DNA from: a virus
DNA length: 20,069 nucleotides
Strand: one strand, 5' to 3'
Virus record (IMG/VR): IMGVR_UViG_3300025652_000734
Span: 1-20,069 of that record
In this document: positions 2,295-13,951 of the stretch, in pieces
Layout: each line of letters opens with the position of its first letter
How positions within the stretch are numbered: position 1 is the first letter of the stretch
Position numbers and translations under genes: made by a program
Notes under the pieces: model-generated
What the model saw: the letters and a program-made list of their open reading frames with translations, nothing else
Told to the model about the DNA's origin: nothing
The model's database searches: none

Positions 2295-2410
2295 TTATCA
2301 TTCCTCTTAGGTAAAGGTGTGTCCGACCAGTCATCACAAGGATCATCAATCGGCACTGGTTTCTTCTCCAGATGTGTATACGGATATAAATATACGTGTG
2401 CCATCGCCAT
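2291..2410 (-). CDS. Candidate 39-residue acidic small protein
   Basis: This short frame starts at ATG 2410 (or 2404) inside the end of the preceding gene. It runs on as LEKKPVPIDDPCDDWSD and TPLPKRNDK and stops with TGA overlapping the hydrolase ATG by 4 bases (ATGA). Three things favour it being real: exact ATGA coupling to the next gene, the same junction style seen elsewhere in this operon, and protein-like composition (acidic middle, basic tail). The ribosome-binding site is weak. It also fills what would otherwise be a gap between its neighbours. I do not recognise a family. The 65-base overlap with the upstream gene is long, so it may be an artefact. Confidence 0.45.
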   Translation of the reverse strand: MAMAHVYLYPYTHLEKKPVPIDDPCDDWSDTPLPKRNDK

Positions 2411-2732
2411 CGCTTTCGCTATCTGATATCAGGCGTACTTCGTTACCTGCATCTGCATATTGCTTCAGCTTCTGTATACTGATGCGTCTATCGCCACGTT
2501 TAGCACTGCGATAGAATTTAATATTAGCTTCTTCACCGTCAATGTATTCACCTGTGACAGTAAAACTGTTACGCATAGTCCTTTCTTTTTCTGTGTCGTA
2601 CCATTCTTCTGTGAAAAACTTGTCACTATAGTCCATACCAAAGTCCTCAAACAAAAACGTTTGCACAGATTTGTTAGCATCAATGATGCTTTTATCCATC
2701 ATAGTTTTTGTCAGTTTAATTTTAGCTGCCAT
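2346..2732 (-). CDS. Hypothetical protein, 128 residues
   Basis: I do not recognise this family with confidence. The protein opens with a Lys-rich segment (KIKLTKTMMDKSIIDANKSVQ), has a central acidic part, then a basic strand-like section (FYRSAKRGDRRISIQKLKQYADAG, residues about 76-99), and ends in an acidic tail. The mix of predicted strands and a basic patch could suit a small nucleic-acid-associated or effector protein, but this is only an impression. TAGGAGAAAACA before the ATG is a strong ribosome-binding site. It sits 9 bases downstream of the preceding gene's stop and overlaps the candidate 39-residue gene at its 3' end. Confidence 0.7.
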   Translation of the reverse strand: MAAKIKLTKTMMDKSIIDANKSVQTFLFEDFGMDYSDKFFTEEWYDTEKERTMRNSFTVTGEYIDGEEANIKFYRSAKRGDRRISIQKLKQYADAGNEVRLISDSESDGDGTRIFISVYTSGEETSAD

Positions 2733-2741
2733 TGTTTTCTC

Positions 2742-2981
2742 CTATTGTAATACTACTGGTGCATCATATACATAACCTATGTCTGCATATTCTTCTGCTT
2801 CGTACTCTGCACATGATACGAACTCTACTTCTTTATCAGGGTGAATGTGCTTCGCCATCAAGACTGCCATACTGCAAGCACTTGCCCATCCACTGATGGC
2901 AGGAAAGGTATCATCAAGTGTGATACAACTCTCCTGTCCATCAATTTCTAAGACAATTTCGTATGCCTTAATCGTCTGCAT
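2742..2981 (-). CDS. Hypothetical acidic protein, about 79 residues (start uncertain)
   Basis: The product is an acidic protein with ISGWASACSMAVLMAKHIHP in the middle and an EYEAEEYADIGY tail; the family is not recognised. I chose the ATG at 2981 (MQTIKAYEIVLEIDG) because it gives a 14-base overlap with the upstream gene. A longer form from ATG 3047 (101 residues) would overlap that gene by 80 bases, yet it has a better ribosome-binding site (GCGAGGAAT), which happens to encode EEY of the upstream protein. Both remain possible. The MQTIKAYEI start reads like a natural N-terminus followed by a beta strand. Confidence 0.6.
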   Translation of the reverse strand: MQTIKAYEIVLEIDGQESCITLDDTFPAISGWASACSMAVLMAKHIHPDKEVEFVSCAEYEAEEYADIGYVYDAPVVLQ

Positions 2982-3258
2982 TGTAATACCATGCACGATC
3001 ATCATTAGGCAGAACACACGGCTTATAGTGGCATGGTCTGTCTCCATATTCCTCGCTCTTTTGTGACTTAAAGTTAAACGTTTGCTTTAACACATACGCT
3101 TTGTGTCGCAAGTCAGCTAATGTGCTCAAGTTTACGTCAAACATTTCTGCTGCATCGTCTAGCATACTATCTAACGCATTGTACAACGCAAGTATTTCTA
3201 ATGCTTTGTCCTCTTGTAGTAGGTATGTTACTGGCTCTTGTGTTTTTTTCTTAGTCAT
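2968..3258 (-). CDS. Hypothetical protein, 96 residues
   Basis: The family is not recognised. Residues about 15-60 look helical (ALEILALYNALDSMLDDAAEMF, then LADLRHKAYVLKQTF), and the tail is polar and Tyr/Cys-containing (CHYKPCVLPNDDRAWYY). AAGGAGTACAAT before the ATG is a near-ideal ribosome-binding site. It overlaps the upstream gene by 8 bases in the ATGACTAA form, a junction that recurs in this genome. It belongs to the leftward operon and probably depends on coupled translation. Confidence 0.7.
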   Translation of the reverse strand: MTKKKTQEPVTYLLQEDKALEILALYNALDSMLDDAAEMFDVNLSTLADLRHKAYVLKQTFNFKSQKSEEYGDRPCHYKPCVLPNDDRAWYYNADD

Positions 3259-3619
3259 ATTGTACTCCTTCTGCTTGTATTGTTGGTATCTTGTCGGTCA
3301 CAGTTAGCCATGCCCGACTTGCATTGTATACAGGTTCTTCTGTCTGCTTGTCAACAAAAGATGCATACTTGTATGGGTTGTAAGTTAAAGTGTCCAATGT
3401 TGGATGGTACATTAAATTGAAAAATGTAACGTCACCACGCACAAATGCATGGACATTCTTCTTGCCTTCACGCAGTACACGTTCACGCCCCGCCTTACGC
3501 ACTACAAACTCAGGGTTTGCAATGTGTACTTTGTCAGTGTGATGTATCACTCTGCCTGTTCTACATGAACGAACAGAGAATGTTTTCTTATGTAGATTGA
3601 AATAAACTTCAACTCTCAT
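3251..3619 (-). CDS. Hypothetical phage protein, 122 residues, carrying one palindrome copy
   Basis: This protein starts MRVEVYFNLHKKTFSVR and has basic segments TGRVIHHTDKVHI and RKAGRERVLREGKKNVHAFVRG (about 41-62). It resembles conserved uncharacterised phage proteins I have seen, but I cannot name a function. The basic, strand-rich layout would fit nucleic-acid binding; this is inference. AAAGGT precedes the ATG at good spacing. It overlaps its upstream neighbour by 11 bases and its downstream neighbour by 8. Codons 71-76 (HPTLDT) are formed by a slightly degenerate copy of the GTCCAANNTTGGAC repeat (3392-3405). Confidence 0.75.
   Translation of the reverse strand: MRVEVYFNLHKKTFSVRSCRTGRVIHHTDKVHIANPEFVVRKAGRERVLREGKKNVHAFVRGDVTFFNLMYHPTLDTLTYNPYKYASFVDKQTEEPVYNASRAWLTVTDKIPTIQAEGVQYD
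3392..3405. repeat. Palindromic repeat copy 1 (one mismatch), intragenic
   Basis: GTCCAATGTTGGAT has a final T in place of C. The flanks AAAGT and GGT match the other copies. It lies inside the 122-residue gene and is the leftmost copy. Confidence 0.8.
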
Positions 3620-3794
3620 CTGACTTACCTTTCAGTCTTGTTATCACAAATAAGTATACGTATATCTGCATGTGTATACACCAGATAGTGAAGGTGTCCA
3701 CACCCTTTACATCATAGCCTACAGTGTACATGATCACAACTGTGAGCAGCATAGCAAAGTAACCTACAAAGGGTGTGAACAATAAGTAGAGCAT
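3609..3794 (-). CDS. Small two-helix membrane protein
   Basis: This 61-residue protein has two predicted membrane segments (about 4-26 and 34-53), a short polar hairpin (DVKGVD) between them and a basic/polar C-terminus (RLKGKSDES). The layout suits a small inner-membrane protein. A holin, superinfection-exclusion or lysis-regulator role is possible but not shown. The ATG shares one base with the stop of the upstream helix-turn-helix gene (TAATG), so it is probably translated by re-initiation. No family recognised. Confidence 0.65.
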   Translation of the reverse strand: MLYLLFTPFVGYFAMLLTVVIMYTVGYDVKGVDTFTIWCIHMQIYVYLFVITRLKGKSDES

Positions 3795-4143: not shown

Positions 4144-4257
4144 CTATGCTACTTTTTTACGAAGGTTAAGTTTAGTTTGACGTGCTACTTTACGATCACG
4201 TTTCCAATCGTCGTTACGTTTAGACTGTCCAACATTGGACAGTTTTCGTTTAGTCAT
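4144..4257 (-). CDS. Very small basic protein, 37 residues, with a palindrome copy
   Basis: The product is Lys/Arg-rich with the core KRKLSNVGQSKRND and a KKVA end. I chose ATG 4257 because it overlaps the upstream gene by 8 bases (ATGACTAA), the junction type used repeatedly here. A longer form from 4326 would overlap by 77 bases. Residues 7-11 (SNVGQ) are produced by the most symmetrical palindrome copy (4224-4243). The high charge suggests nucleic-acid or ribosome contact, but no function is assigned. The short length makes it less certain. Confidence 0.5.
   Translation of the reverse strand: MTKRKLSNVGQSKRNDDWKRDRKVARQTKLNLRKKVA
4227..4240. repeat. Palindromic repeat copy 2 (GTCCAACATTGGAC), intragenic
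   Basis: Symmetry extends to 20 bases (4224-4243, ACT...AGT) apart from the central CA, which makes this the most symmetrical copy. It lies inside the 37-residue basic gene. Confidence 0.9.
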
Positions 4258-5042: not shown

Positions 5043-5163
5043 TGTATCGTCCTTTTAAAGTGTCCAACATTGGACGGTTTCAATTTGGTAGTTAGTATAT
5101 GTATACGTTATATATACTTTCACTAAAGTATCAAGTATATATAACTTATACTATACATAAAGG
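5043..5163 (-). promoter_or_regulatory. Control region A: leftward promoter plus operator-like palindrome
   Basis: Read on the minus strand, TTGATA (5134-5129) and TATAAC (5112-5107) are separated by 16 bases and form a good sigma70-like promoter. The spacer contains an inverted repeat, ACTTTAGTGAAAGT. The palindrome copy at 5062-5075 lies roughly 25-37 bases after the expected start and just before the ribosome-binding site. The same parts, with the same 54-base offset, recur in control region B (5368-5481). Confidence 0.6.
5062..5075. repeat. Palindromic repeat copy 3 (GTCCAACATTGGAC)
   Basis: This exact copy lies in a 29-base stretch (5054-5082) identical to 5379-5407. It sits between the promoter and ribosome-binding site of the HhH-GPD-like gene, the position expected of an operator. 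Confidence 0.9.
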
Positions 5164-5367: not shown

Positions 5368-5481
5368 AATAAACTCCGTTTAAAGTGTCCAACATTGGAC
5401 GGTTTCAGTTATCTTTAGTATTATACATATGTTATATAACACTTTCACTAAAGTATCAAGTGTTTATATAACTATGTAATA
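5368..5481 (-). promoter_or_regulatory. Control region B: leftward promoter plus operator-like palindrome
   Basis: On the minus strand, TTGATA (5459-5454) and TATAAC (5436-5431) are 17 bases apart. The spacer holds the same ACTTTAGTGAAAGT inverted repeat as region A within a 21-base identical stretch (5441-5461). The palindrome copy at 5387-5400 precedes the ribosome-binding site of the 67-residue gene. The distance between the 21-base block and the palindrome is 54 bases in both regions, which indicates duplication or strong selection on spacing. Confidence 0.6.
5387..5400. repeat. Palindromic repeat copy 4 (GTCCAACATTGGAC)
   Basis: This exact copy has the same 29-base surroundings as copy 3. 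It is placed between the promoter and ribosome-binding site of the 67-residue gene. Confidence 0.9.
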
Positions 5482-5652: not shown

Positions 5653-5879
5653 GATACATCTTTCCATCCACTATCGTAGATAAGCGTTGGTTCGTGTTCT
5701 TTTAACTCTTTTGGAGTTAATGTGTTAGCAATCAAAGTGTCCAATGTTGGACGGTTTGCTTCTTGTGCTTGTGACAATTCAATGAATTGTGCCATAGCTG
5801 CATCCAACATGTACTGCTGGATGCTTGCTTGTGTTTTCGGTAATAAATACCGAATTGATGTTTTATCTCTACGGCTCAT
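5649..5879 (-). CDS. Hypothetical protein, 76 residues, with a palindrome copy
   Basis: This is a mostly helical, Gln/Ala-rich small protein (QASIQQYMLDAAMAQFIELS) with a basic N-terminus (MSRRDK). It overlaps both neighbours by four bases (ATGA at each end), a strong sign of coupled translation. Codons 43-48 (RPTLDT) derive from palindrome copy 5. The family is not recognised. Confidence 0.7.
   Translation of the reverse strand: MSRRDKTSIRYLLPKTQASIQQYMLDAAMAQFIELSQAQEANRPTLDTLIANTLTPKELKEHEPTLIYDSGWKDVS
5739..5752. repeat. Palindromic repeat copy 5 (GTCCAATGTTGGAC), intragenic
   Basis: This exact copy lies inside the 76-residue gene. It is read in the same frame as copy 1, so both encode a PTLDT peptide. 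Confidence 0.9.
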
Positions 5880-6448
5880 GCAGCTACTTTCTTTGAAGGA
5901 ATAGCTGCCATCAGATCTTCAATGATCTTTTCAAGATCCAAACCATTGAGTTCAGCTTGAGCAATTATGGTATTTACCATAACCTTGTGAGATATCTTCA
6001 CTGGTGCTTTCTCTGCTTTAGCAGGAGCTTCCTCAGACTGTCCAACATTGGACGGTTCTGCTTTAGCAGGTTGATCTTCATCACTGCCCTTGGCAGCTTT
6101 ACGCATTGCAGCTTGTAAAGCTGTAAGAGATGAACCTGTATATTTGTTATCTACGATAAACTGGCGACATTCCTTTTCGTTTTCAACGAACCAAAGAGCT
6201 TCTGCTCTACGACGACGATCAATTTGCTGAATACCATGTGTTCGAAGAACATGTGTTGGTATTTGACCAGCATCTGTGGTTGCATTTGCTTTCAATTGCT
6301 GAAGCAATTTGCCCAACCTTGTATCGAAACCATTCTCTTTGATGGTTTGCTTTAGGCTGTTCACTTGACGCCAAATTGATCCAAGGGCTTTGCCCTCTTT
6401 TACCAAAGCATCGATTGAAGTACCAGTTGTTGCTGTTGAGTTTGCCAT
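5876..6448 (-). CDS. Hypothetical protein, 190 residues, first gene of leftward operon
   Basis: Translation from ATG 6448 (MANSTATTGTS) is supported by TAGGAAAACGAAA upstream. The frame stays open upstream to 6643, but that extension runs through a long hairpin and reads unnaturally. Residues 10-110 are helical and basic (GKALGSIWRQVNSLKQTIKE; DRRRRAEALWFVENEKECRQ). A linker rich in Ala, Glu, Pro and Lys (about 120-150) holds palindrome copy 6 as PSNVGQ, and a final helical domain follows (VNTIIAQAELNGLDLEKIIE). As the promoter-proximal gene it may be regulatory or replicative; I cannot assign a family. It overlaps the next gene by four bases. Confidence 0.7.
   Translation of the reverse strand: MANSTATTGTSIDALVKEGKALGSIWRQVNSLKQTIKENGFDTRLGKLLQQLKANATTDAGQIPTHVLRTHGIQQIDRRRRAEALWFVENEKECRQFIVDNKYTGSSLTALQAAMRKAAKGSDEDQPAKAEPSNVGQSEEAPAKAEKAPVKISHKVMVNTIIAQAELNGLDLEKIIEDLMAAIPSKKVAA
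6040..6053. repeat. Palindromic repeat copy 6 (GTCCAACATTGGAC), intragenic
   Basis: This exact copy lies in the linker of the 190-residue protein. The reading frame matches that of copy 2, so both encode SNVGQ. Confidence 0.9.
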
Positions 6449-6462
6449 TTTCGTTTTCCTAT

Positions 6463-6544
6463 CTATCTTCTGTTTTATAAAAGAGAACTTATATCTCTCA
6501 CAAGAAGTGAGATATAATTCTCTTATAAAACTATTAGAAGATAG
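6463..6544 (-). other. Long imperfect hairpin in leader of leftward operon
   Basis: Two arms of about 38 bases flank an AAGAA loop. The outer CTATCTTCT/AGAAGATAG, then GTTTTATAA/TTATAAAAC, GAGAA/TTCTC and ATATCTC/GAGATAT segments pair, with four short bulges and about 34 paired bases in total. It lies just upstream of the ribosome-binding site of the 190-residue gene. TATACT on the minus strand (6548-6543) overlaps its distal end and could be a -10 box. Possible roles are an RNA processing site, attenuator, mRNA-stabilising structure or operator. Confidence 0.75.
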
Positions 6545-6718
6545 TATAGAGTTTGTCCAGAGAAAATTTGCCTCGTGATCCTCTGCGCCTGTCGTTTCAC
6601 GCACCACTGCAAAAATATATTTCATATATATTTTGAAGTACATGCGCTAAACTCATGAGCCAAGATTGGGTTGGGCCACCAAAACTGTTGCTTAATTGCC
6701 ACAGTATAACTGTGAAGT

Positions 6719-6732
6719 GTCCAATGTTGGAC
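6719..6732. repeat. Palindromic repeat copy 7 (GTCCAATGTTGGAC), intergenic
   Basis: This exact copy with flanks AAGT and GGTT lies in the divergent intergenic region. Its right half can also pair with CATTGG at 6744-6749, nested around GGTT/AACC. It is the rightmost copy; I found none in the late module. Confidence 0.9.
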
Positions 6733-7186
6733 GGTTGGTGAACCATTGGCAGAGCTGCACATGGCTTGTAGGATCATGTGATTGATCAATGGTATTGATA
6801 AAGGGGGGTATGGTTCTGTACAGCAAAGCTGTAGATATATCTATCAGCATAGCTGATGTAGTGGGATAATGTGCATCGGCACTGCTACACATCTTCGATG
6901 TGAAAATCCCCTGTGTTTCTTCACTCTAAAGAGTGGCAACTGATTGCATAACAGTTGTCGTAGACAAGTAACCTGTTGATATCATTCATATCTTTGATAT
7001 GGTGGTGAATGATGTGGCATTGTTTGCTTTCAACACAGGTCATGACGCTGCATCATACATGCAATTGTGTGTTGAGAGGGGTAGGCAGGGGCCATGGGGG
7101 GCCGTAGCGTTATATATGCATGAACTCCTACACAGATCAGGAAAATGGGGTGTTAACCACATTACACATATAGTGGTTTACAGTAT

Positions 7187-7267: not shown

Positions 7268-7295
7268 TTGACATGGTATTAATAATGTGTAAAAC
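7268..7295 (+). promoter_or_regulatory. Candidate rightward sigma70-like promoter
   Basis: TTGACA (7268-7273, perfect -35) is followed after 16 bases by TAAAAC (7290-7295, 4 of 6 matches to the -10 consensus). It would transcribe the rightward module through about 215 bases of repeat-rich leader. The -10 is weak, so this is only moderately supported. Confidence 0.4.
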
Positions 7296-7323
7296 TATAT
7301 ATGTTAGTTAGGGTAGGGTCACT

Positions 7324-7429
7324 ATAAGTGATACATGTACAGTGATACACTTAAATATACACATACATAACTAAAATAACATATATCTATAAAAACATAT
7401 AAGTATACACGTACAGTGATATACTTTAA
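7324..7429 (+). repeat. Pair of 30-base direct repeats with GTGATAYAY motifs
   Basis: The blocks at 7324-7353 and 7399-7429 share the pattern ATAAGT, ATACAYGTACAGTGATA and ACTT with few changes, 75 bases apart. The submotif GTGATAYAY occurs at 7207, 7328, 7342 and 7416 on the plus strand. Such iteron-like repeats upstream of the late module could bind a transcription activator or replication initiator. Confidence 0.6.
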
Positions 7430-7448
7430 GTAAGGATACATGTAGCTA

Positions 7449-13576: not shown

Positions 13577-13951
13577 ATGGCTAGAGAATTAACAGAACGT
13601 CAACAAAAATTTCTTAATGTCCTTATGGATGAAGCTGGTGGTAATATTACTGAAGCTAAAAAACTTGCAGGGTATTCACCTAATACACCTAACCGTGAAA
13701 TTACTACTAGTTTAAAAGAAGAAATAATTGATGTAACACATAACTACTTAGCACGTAATGTGCCAAAGGCAGCTATGGCTATGGTCAGTGCTTTGAACGA
13801 TCCTACTGAGCTAGGTATACGTGACAAGATGGCAGCAGCTAAAGAACTACTAGATCGTACAGGTCTTGTAAAAACAGAGAAGATGCAAGTAGAAGCAAAG
13901 GGTGGTGTTATGTTAATGCCAGCTAAACAAGCACAGGATGAAGATGACTAA
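13577..13951 (+). CDS. terS: Terminase small subunit-like protein
   Basis: This is a 124-residue protein. The N-terminal pattern LTERQQKFLNVLMDEAGGNI then TEAKKLAGYSPNTPNREIT is typical of phage TerS-type helix-turn-helix domains, where a search helix precedes A-x-x-A-G-Y-S. The middle is helical (oligomerisation), and the acidic end (QDEDD) may contact the large subunit. It would recognise the packaging start and recruit TerL. It lies two genes upstream of TerL and ends in an 8-base ATGACTAA overlap with the next gene. Local homology to the Terminase_2 family is inferred from the motif. Confidence 0.7.
   Translation: MARELTERQQKFLNVLMDEAGGNITEAKKLAGYSPNTPNREITTSLKEEIIDVTHNYLARNVPKAAMAMVSALNDPTELGIRDKMAAAKELLDRTGLVKTEKMQVEAKGGVMLMPAKQAQDEDD

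Follow-up and report, generated by a model that had tools for sequence, protein, structure and literature searches.

A conserved hairpin-bearing element at the divergent early/late junction of HMO-2011-type marine phages: a possible replication origin and gene switch

The promoters recognised by the virion RNA polymerase of phage N4 are hairpins with stems of 5-7 bp and loops of 3 nt, and the stoperators of mycobacteriophage L5 are operators dispersed through the early region. Phage and plasmid replication origins with iterons offer another kind of layout, in which boxes at fixed spacing, hairpins, an AT-rich flank with repeats and a skew minimum come together. The GOLLD, ROOL and OLE RNAs, in turn, are long non-coding molecules with many covarying hairpins, and both GOLLD and ROOL are encoded by phages (PMC12286853). 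The locus considered here belongs to the HMO-2011-type phages, a marine viral group that PMC9038755 describes as dominant and widespread.

The window, that is, the whole stretch of 20,069 bases that was analysed, is part of the genome of a marine podovirus of the HMO-2011 type, and its large terminase shares 84-87% identity with the terminases of Puniceispirillum phage HMO-2011 and Roseobacter phages CRP-345 and CRP-1. Leftward genes start at about 6.45 kb and rightward ones at 7.5 kb, and an array of short hairpins, initially noticed in a sequence-only reading, lies at this divergent early/late junction. These hairpins are part of a conserved non-coding element that spans approximately positions 6575-7182. 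Term searches of PMC9038755 and of PMC6918029, a paper on phages of the Roseobacter RCA lineage, turned up nothing on a promoter, control element or non-coding RNA at the junction. The features of the region are the following (strand is given where one is assigned):

5876-6448, minus strand: first gene (gene 1) of the early operon read leftward; its 190-aa product is predicted to be all-helical and has no family match
6463-6544: long stepped hairpin directly before gene 1, with arms CTATCTTCT... and ...AGAAGATAG, read directly
6575-6660: block A, GTGATCCTCTGCGCCTGTCGTTTC - hairpin - GAAGT..TGCGCTAAACTC, exact motif in 82 viral contigs
6612-6634: apical hairpin of block A, AAAATATAT-TTCAT-ATATATTTT, 9-bp stem, perfect in 62 of 64 relatives
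6700-6714: hairpin CACAGT-ATA-ACTGTG, in the shuffle-tested count
6719-6732: GTCCAAYRTTGGAC palindrome, operator-like, one of seven dispersed sites, a number that no shuffle reached
6785-6799: hairpin ATCAAT-GGT-ATTGAT, in the shuffle-tested count
6819-6833: hairpin TACAGC-AAA-GCTGTA, in the shuffle-tested count
6843-6857: hairpin ATCAGC-ATA-GCTGAT, with other hairpins at the same place in relatives (e.g. ACCCC..GGGGT)
6873-6880: conserved GCATCGGC box, from comparison with relatives
6888-6902: hairpin CACATC-TTC-GATGTG, which covaries (helix 1 of the alignment)
6922-6935: hairpin CACTC-TAAA-GAGTG before box C (helix 2 of the alignment), in 55 of 61 relatives
6935-6956: block C, GGCAACTGATNNNATAACAGTT, near-invariant imperfect palindrome, in more than 100 viral contigs and three isolates
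6987-7001: hairpin CATATC-TTT-GATATG, from the shuffle-tested count and relatives
7079-7125: G-rich tract, then alternating GTTATATATGCAT, from comparison with relatives
7130-7161: block D, ACACAGATCAGGAAAA....GTGTTAACCACA, at least 145 distinct copies among the matches listed
7151-7182: inverted repeat TGTtAACCAC..GTGGTTtACA, from sequence comparison
7268-7295, plus strand: promoter-like site ahead of the late genes, TTGACA-16-TAAAAC here and TTGACA-17-TATAAT in relatives
7319-7430: AT-rich leader in which CACTTAAAGTG-like repeats number 16.7 per kb, compared with 2.6 per kb in DNA further along

The shared boxes were first recognised by eye, by comparing the window with HMO-2011, and pattern scans found the element in more than 100 viral contigs. 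The scan for CCTCTGCGCNTGNCGTTTC returned 82 viral contigs, nearly all genuine (the match in L128 is a chance hit), while those for box C (GGCAACTGATNNNATAACAGTT) and box D (ACACAGATYAGGNAAAW) gave at least 120 matches each. Three isolates, HMO-2011, CRP-1 and CRP-345, carry the element, and a covariance model of block C from whose building they had been left out recovered all three at 59-60 bits; the same model found no match in the examined parts of CRP-603, CRP-207, CRP-2, CRP-3 and HTVC033P. A search for the first motif across 84,980 species genomes of bacteria and archaea gave 38 matches, compared with about 30 estimated to arise by chance, and none was accompanied by the other boxes. In CRP-345 and CRP-1 some of the element hairpins are replaced by TTGTGATCACAA palindromes (L004 241-330, L005 245-330).

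The sequence-only reading had counted at least ten stem-loops in about 570 bases and had proposed shuffled sequence as a control. Counting perfect stems against 300 dinucleotide-preserving shuffles bore the claim out, since the counts for 6612-7178 exceeded those of all 300: 11 stems of at least 5 bp with loops of 3-8 nt (3.5 ± 1.8 in shuffles), 7 of at least 6 bp (1.0 in shuffles) and 7 of at least 6 bp with loops of 3-5 nt (0.6 in shuffles). The four hairpins that it had named, with 6-bp stems and 3-nt loops, are all present (6819-6833, 6843-6857, 6888-6902 and 6987-7001), and two more share this design (6700-6714 and 6785-6799). Its statement that the density is unlike that of the neighbouring coding DNA holds on the right but not on the left: the 567-bp stretches from 5.1 to 7.4 kb, leftward genes included, contain 5-7 such hairpins each, whereas the rightward late genes contain 0-3. 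In the complete HMO-2011 genome the only hairpin hot spot is at the same junction, with 7, 4, 8 and 2 per 500 bp versus mostly 0-2 elsewhere. The long stepped hairpin upstream of gene 1 also has equivalents, of other sequence, at the same place in HMO-2011, CRP-345 and CRP-1.

Comparison with relatives revealed that pairing is retained at these places while the sequence changes. Of 64 distinct relatives, 62 form the apical hairpin of block A without mismatch over 5 bp or more, using 27 different sequences, compared with 3% of shuffled segments, and two pairs beneath it (columns 39/87 and 40/86) are maintained in 58 of 58 sequences through switches between A-T and G-C and between C-G and T-A. 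The hairpin before box C has a perfect 5-bp stem in 55 of 61 relatives, built from at least 10 different stems, and its loops occur in both orientations (TTTA/TAAA, CAAG/CTTG), inverted loops being present in the comparison of the block A apical hairpin as well. In five relatives (L092, L105, L150, L162 and L212) the second G-run of the G-rich tract is found as a C-run in the block D region, which may be another sign of hairpin-loop inversion. In an alignment of 24 sequences, 94% of the cells pair in the named structure, 43 cells carry two-sided changes (12.7 when shuffled) and the covariation score is 0.285, compared to 0.091 for shuffled alignments and at most 0.063 with partners slid; helix 3 is invariant and hence silent on pairing either way. 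The conserved pairing in relatives on which the sequence-only reading had made its array depend was thus found. Since the hairpins keep their places while the letters change, the element very probably works as a control element. Helices conserved in position, with changes that compensate each other, are the generic mark of a structured RNA and are present here, and a DNA hairpin would show the same.

The geometry of the element is also constrained. Among the matches listed, 113 of 119 distinct sequences place box D 194-201 bp after box C, and the other six do so at 184-186 bp; the latter class, about one helical turn shorter, could be a single lineage. Between the two boxes the mean identity is approximately 51% in the equal-length set. 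Block A is placed less strictly, its separation from box C ranging over 175-355. Among the matches listed, 130 of 145 distinct copies of box D have GTTAACCAC after them, at 22 or 23 bp in 113 measured sequences. Further downstream, no more than 450 bp from box D, 130 of 138 relatives among the matches listed have a predicted rightward sigma-70-type promoter (9 of 486 shuffles), and therefore the element lies upstream of the late promoter. The CACTTAAAGTG-like repeats, enriched in CRP-345 and CRP-1 too, occupy the interval between this promoter and the first late gene. With a GC content of 0.31-0.33 at 7.0-7.75 kb of the window and these repeats, AT-rich, repeat-bearing DNA adjoins the conserved boxes, as looked for in an origin. 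The cumulative GC skew, a further check named in the sequence-only reading, reaches its minimum at the junction in the complete genomes of HMO-2011 (54,248) and CRP-345 (54,301); because transcription changes direction at the same place, this minimum is consistent with an origin and not decisive.

The position-conserved hairpins with two-sided changes, the fixed spacing, the skew minimum, the AT-rich flank, the repeats and the promoter together favour a cis-acting DNA control region, most likely a replication origin combined with an early/late switch, to which we would assign a little less than an even chance. It is the role proposed in the sequence-only reading that fits best, although unproven, and it builds on observed features: the fixed boxes A, C and D, the hairpins conserved in position and not in letters, the near-constant 196-bp spacing between C and D, the flank and the promoter-like site. 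In this account the boxes would be bound by phage proteins that fix their relative arrangement, and supercoiling or unwinding of the DNA would let the small palindromes extrude as cruciforms or single-strand hairpins, offering entry points to the phage primase, helicase and polymerase; the identity of the box-binding protein and a replication start at the element are both matters that we purely infer. A primase, a helicase and a PolA-type polymerase are indeed encoded by HMO-2011-type phages, which counts for an origin. So does an exact TGTTTCACGTGAAACA palindrome, which we take to be the bacterial chromosomal parS site, in the slot of the hairpin before box C in L217 (9168-9183), an argument weakened by its occurrence in a single relative; repeated AACGAAAC units stand just upstream of it. 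Against an origin, gene 1 lacks a fold match: this gene has homologs in 117 loci and an AlphaFold model with pLDDT 78, and searches gave no Pfam or PHROG match for it and no PDB fold match at E <= 0.001 for its predicted structure. We know of no initiator protein for these phages. RNA folding mildly better than shuffled on both strands also speaks against an origin, and a fixed length with local hairpins is found in compact RNAs as well.

These last points lead to the alternative that the element specifies a large structured non-coding RNA of 450-650 nt which, in the manner of GOLLD and ROOL, would act in trans during infection, a reading that we consider rather unlikely. Several covarying hairpins alternate with invariant segments, as such an RNA would have it, the element is probably not protein-coding, its box-to-box lengths varying by non-multiples of three, and folding energies in 18 relatives are below those of shuffles (mean z -2.16 on the plus strand and -1.61 on the minus strand). 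The plus-strand preference in raw folding energy (37/42) was discounted as largely due to composition, the difference against shuffles being small, but some helix-extending outer pairs are G-T on the plus strand only (27/0, 38/0 and 23/0), and the element triloops are biased (TTC 21:2). For block A, a plus-strand RNA containing a GCGC/GYGY helix had at first been considered, but was abandoned because CRP-345 and CRP-1 have GCCC there. However, Rfam covariance models, GOLLD, ROOL and OLE included, yielded no match at gathering score in the window and seven relatives, and the evalue mode produced chance-level matches only. Moreover, in the covarying stem before box C only 2 G-T and 4 A-C cells were seen among 144 (three covarying pairs in 48 ungapped sequences), and this near-absence of wobble on either strand is expected if both DNA strands must pair, just as loops in both orientations are what DNA hairpin inversions leave. 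At the edges of the element hairpins, wobble favours no strand (60 G-T vs 52 A-C). A search of the element for a long-range helix with clear two-sided changes found none, nor was a clear promoter found for an RNA spanning it, and box D precedes the late-gene promoter. The multi-hairpin RNA suggested in the sequence-only reading thus retains real covariation, with no strand clearly favoured and no Rfam family matched. Wobble-poor covariation, loops in both orientations and the lack of a favoured strand lead us to prefer, tentatively, a DNA origin or control region, and DNA is weighted above RNA for this element.

Hairpins run on from the element into the leftward early genes, where perfect 7-bp hairpins are seven-fold over-represented (123 vs 17). 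Here G-U extension prefers the mRNA strand (93 to 43), on which the triloops are GAA or GGA (on the plus strand, TTC 34:7 and TCC 29:2). These hairpins look like mRNA structure, a phenomenon separate from the conserved element, and the array of the sequence-only reading is the meeting place of both. In L010, about 30 perfect hairpins of 6-8 bp occur within 1.4 kb (2390-3770), also inside a leftward 205-aa gene (2757-3374). That the element is itself a long 5' leader of the early transcript, whose hairpins regulate translation or stability of early mRNA, would agree with this continuity, with the shared TTC loop bias and with the perfect hairpins whose loops hold a GGA(G) ribosome-binding site directly ahead of early start codons (L010 2687-2703 and 3378-3392; HMO-2011 record 452-466 and 54828-54842). 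Nevertheless, the balance of wobble inside the element shows no such bias, and a promoter-like sequence and the long hairpin separate gene 1 from the element, which need not be in its mRNA, so that we regard a leader as improbable. More improbable still is that the palindromes are mainly a mutational by-product of template switching at stalled forks, which perfects short inverted repeats, the region being a hot spot. The large excess of perfect over one-mismatch stems and the inverted loops would suit such a process, but hairpins at fixed positions beside invariant boxes, within a fixed overall length and in divergent phages, need selection, and the wobble and loop biases of the early genes are strand-specific. 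A packaging (pac) site recognised by terminase, also suggested in the sequence-only reading, has nothing specific in its favour and is very unlikely: the terminase genes are at 13.6-15.8 kb, more than 6 kb away, the element does not adjoin the small-terminase-like gene (13,577-13,951), and in relatives it is tied to the junction before the late promoter. An attachment site was rejected on the grounds that the relative CRP-3 integrates at a tRNA-Met gene, as reported in PMC6918029.

Seven copies of the GTCCAAYRTTGGAC palindrome, six of them exact, are spread across the leftward early genes (3392-3405, 4227-4240, 5062-5075, 5387-5400, 5739-5752, 6040-6053 and 6719-6732), with similar flanks and in one orientation (AAGTGTCCAAyrTTGGACGGTT). 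Because HMO-2011 repeats a different palindrome (TAGTCCG-acag-CGGACTA), these sites look like putative phage-specific operators. They resemble the L5 stoperators in being dispersed palindromes of the early region, one of them inside the element, a likeness that covers these sites and not the hairpin array. Twice in the window a ACTTTCACTAAAGTATCAAGT unit stands about 53 bp from a GTCCAACATTGGAC site (5114-5143 and 5441-5468), and the ATACTTT-AGTG-AAAGTAT unit is present in HMO-2011 also. The N4 promoters are similar to the element hairpins in their 5-7 bp stems, 3-nt loops and some GNA loops on one strand; in contrast, the element has many unrelated stems, and its purine-centred loops are on the wrong strand for the leftward early genes. 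No virion RNA polymerase was matched in Pfam or PHROGs among the large unassigned proteins scanned, where a very divergent one could escape, and CRP-345 gp40 had no RNA polymerase match in PDB. Hairpin promoters of the N4 type were therefore rejected, on loop orientation and the lack of a recognised RNA polymerase.

Phage and plasmid origins are alike in junction location, skew minimum, AT-rich repeat flank, fixed box spacing and hairpins, but the element shows no recognised initiator or DnaA-type iteron array and its hairpins vary freely in sequence. With the RNAs of PMC12286853 it shares length, many covarying hairpins, non-coding nature and, for GOLLD and ROOL, carriage by phages, and it differs from them in being wobble-poor, without a covariance-model match, and placed before a promoter and not close to tRNA islands. 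The element thus matches no Rfam family and resembles origins in layout and GOLLD and ROOL in length, phage carriage and hairpin richness, membership of either being unproven. It is possible, at somewhat less than even chances, that variable-sequence hairpins, fixed in position around a pair of boxes some 196 bp from each other, act by shape and not by sequence, be it in a large ornate RNA or, at an origin, in DNA that forms cruciforms or single-strand hairpins, and they would then represent a new class of phage control element common to a dominant ocean phage group. The element offers a natural case of structure kept by covariation almost without wobble and, being common to HMO-2011, CRP-1 and CRP-345, a concrete target for the study of replication start and gene switching in these phages.
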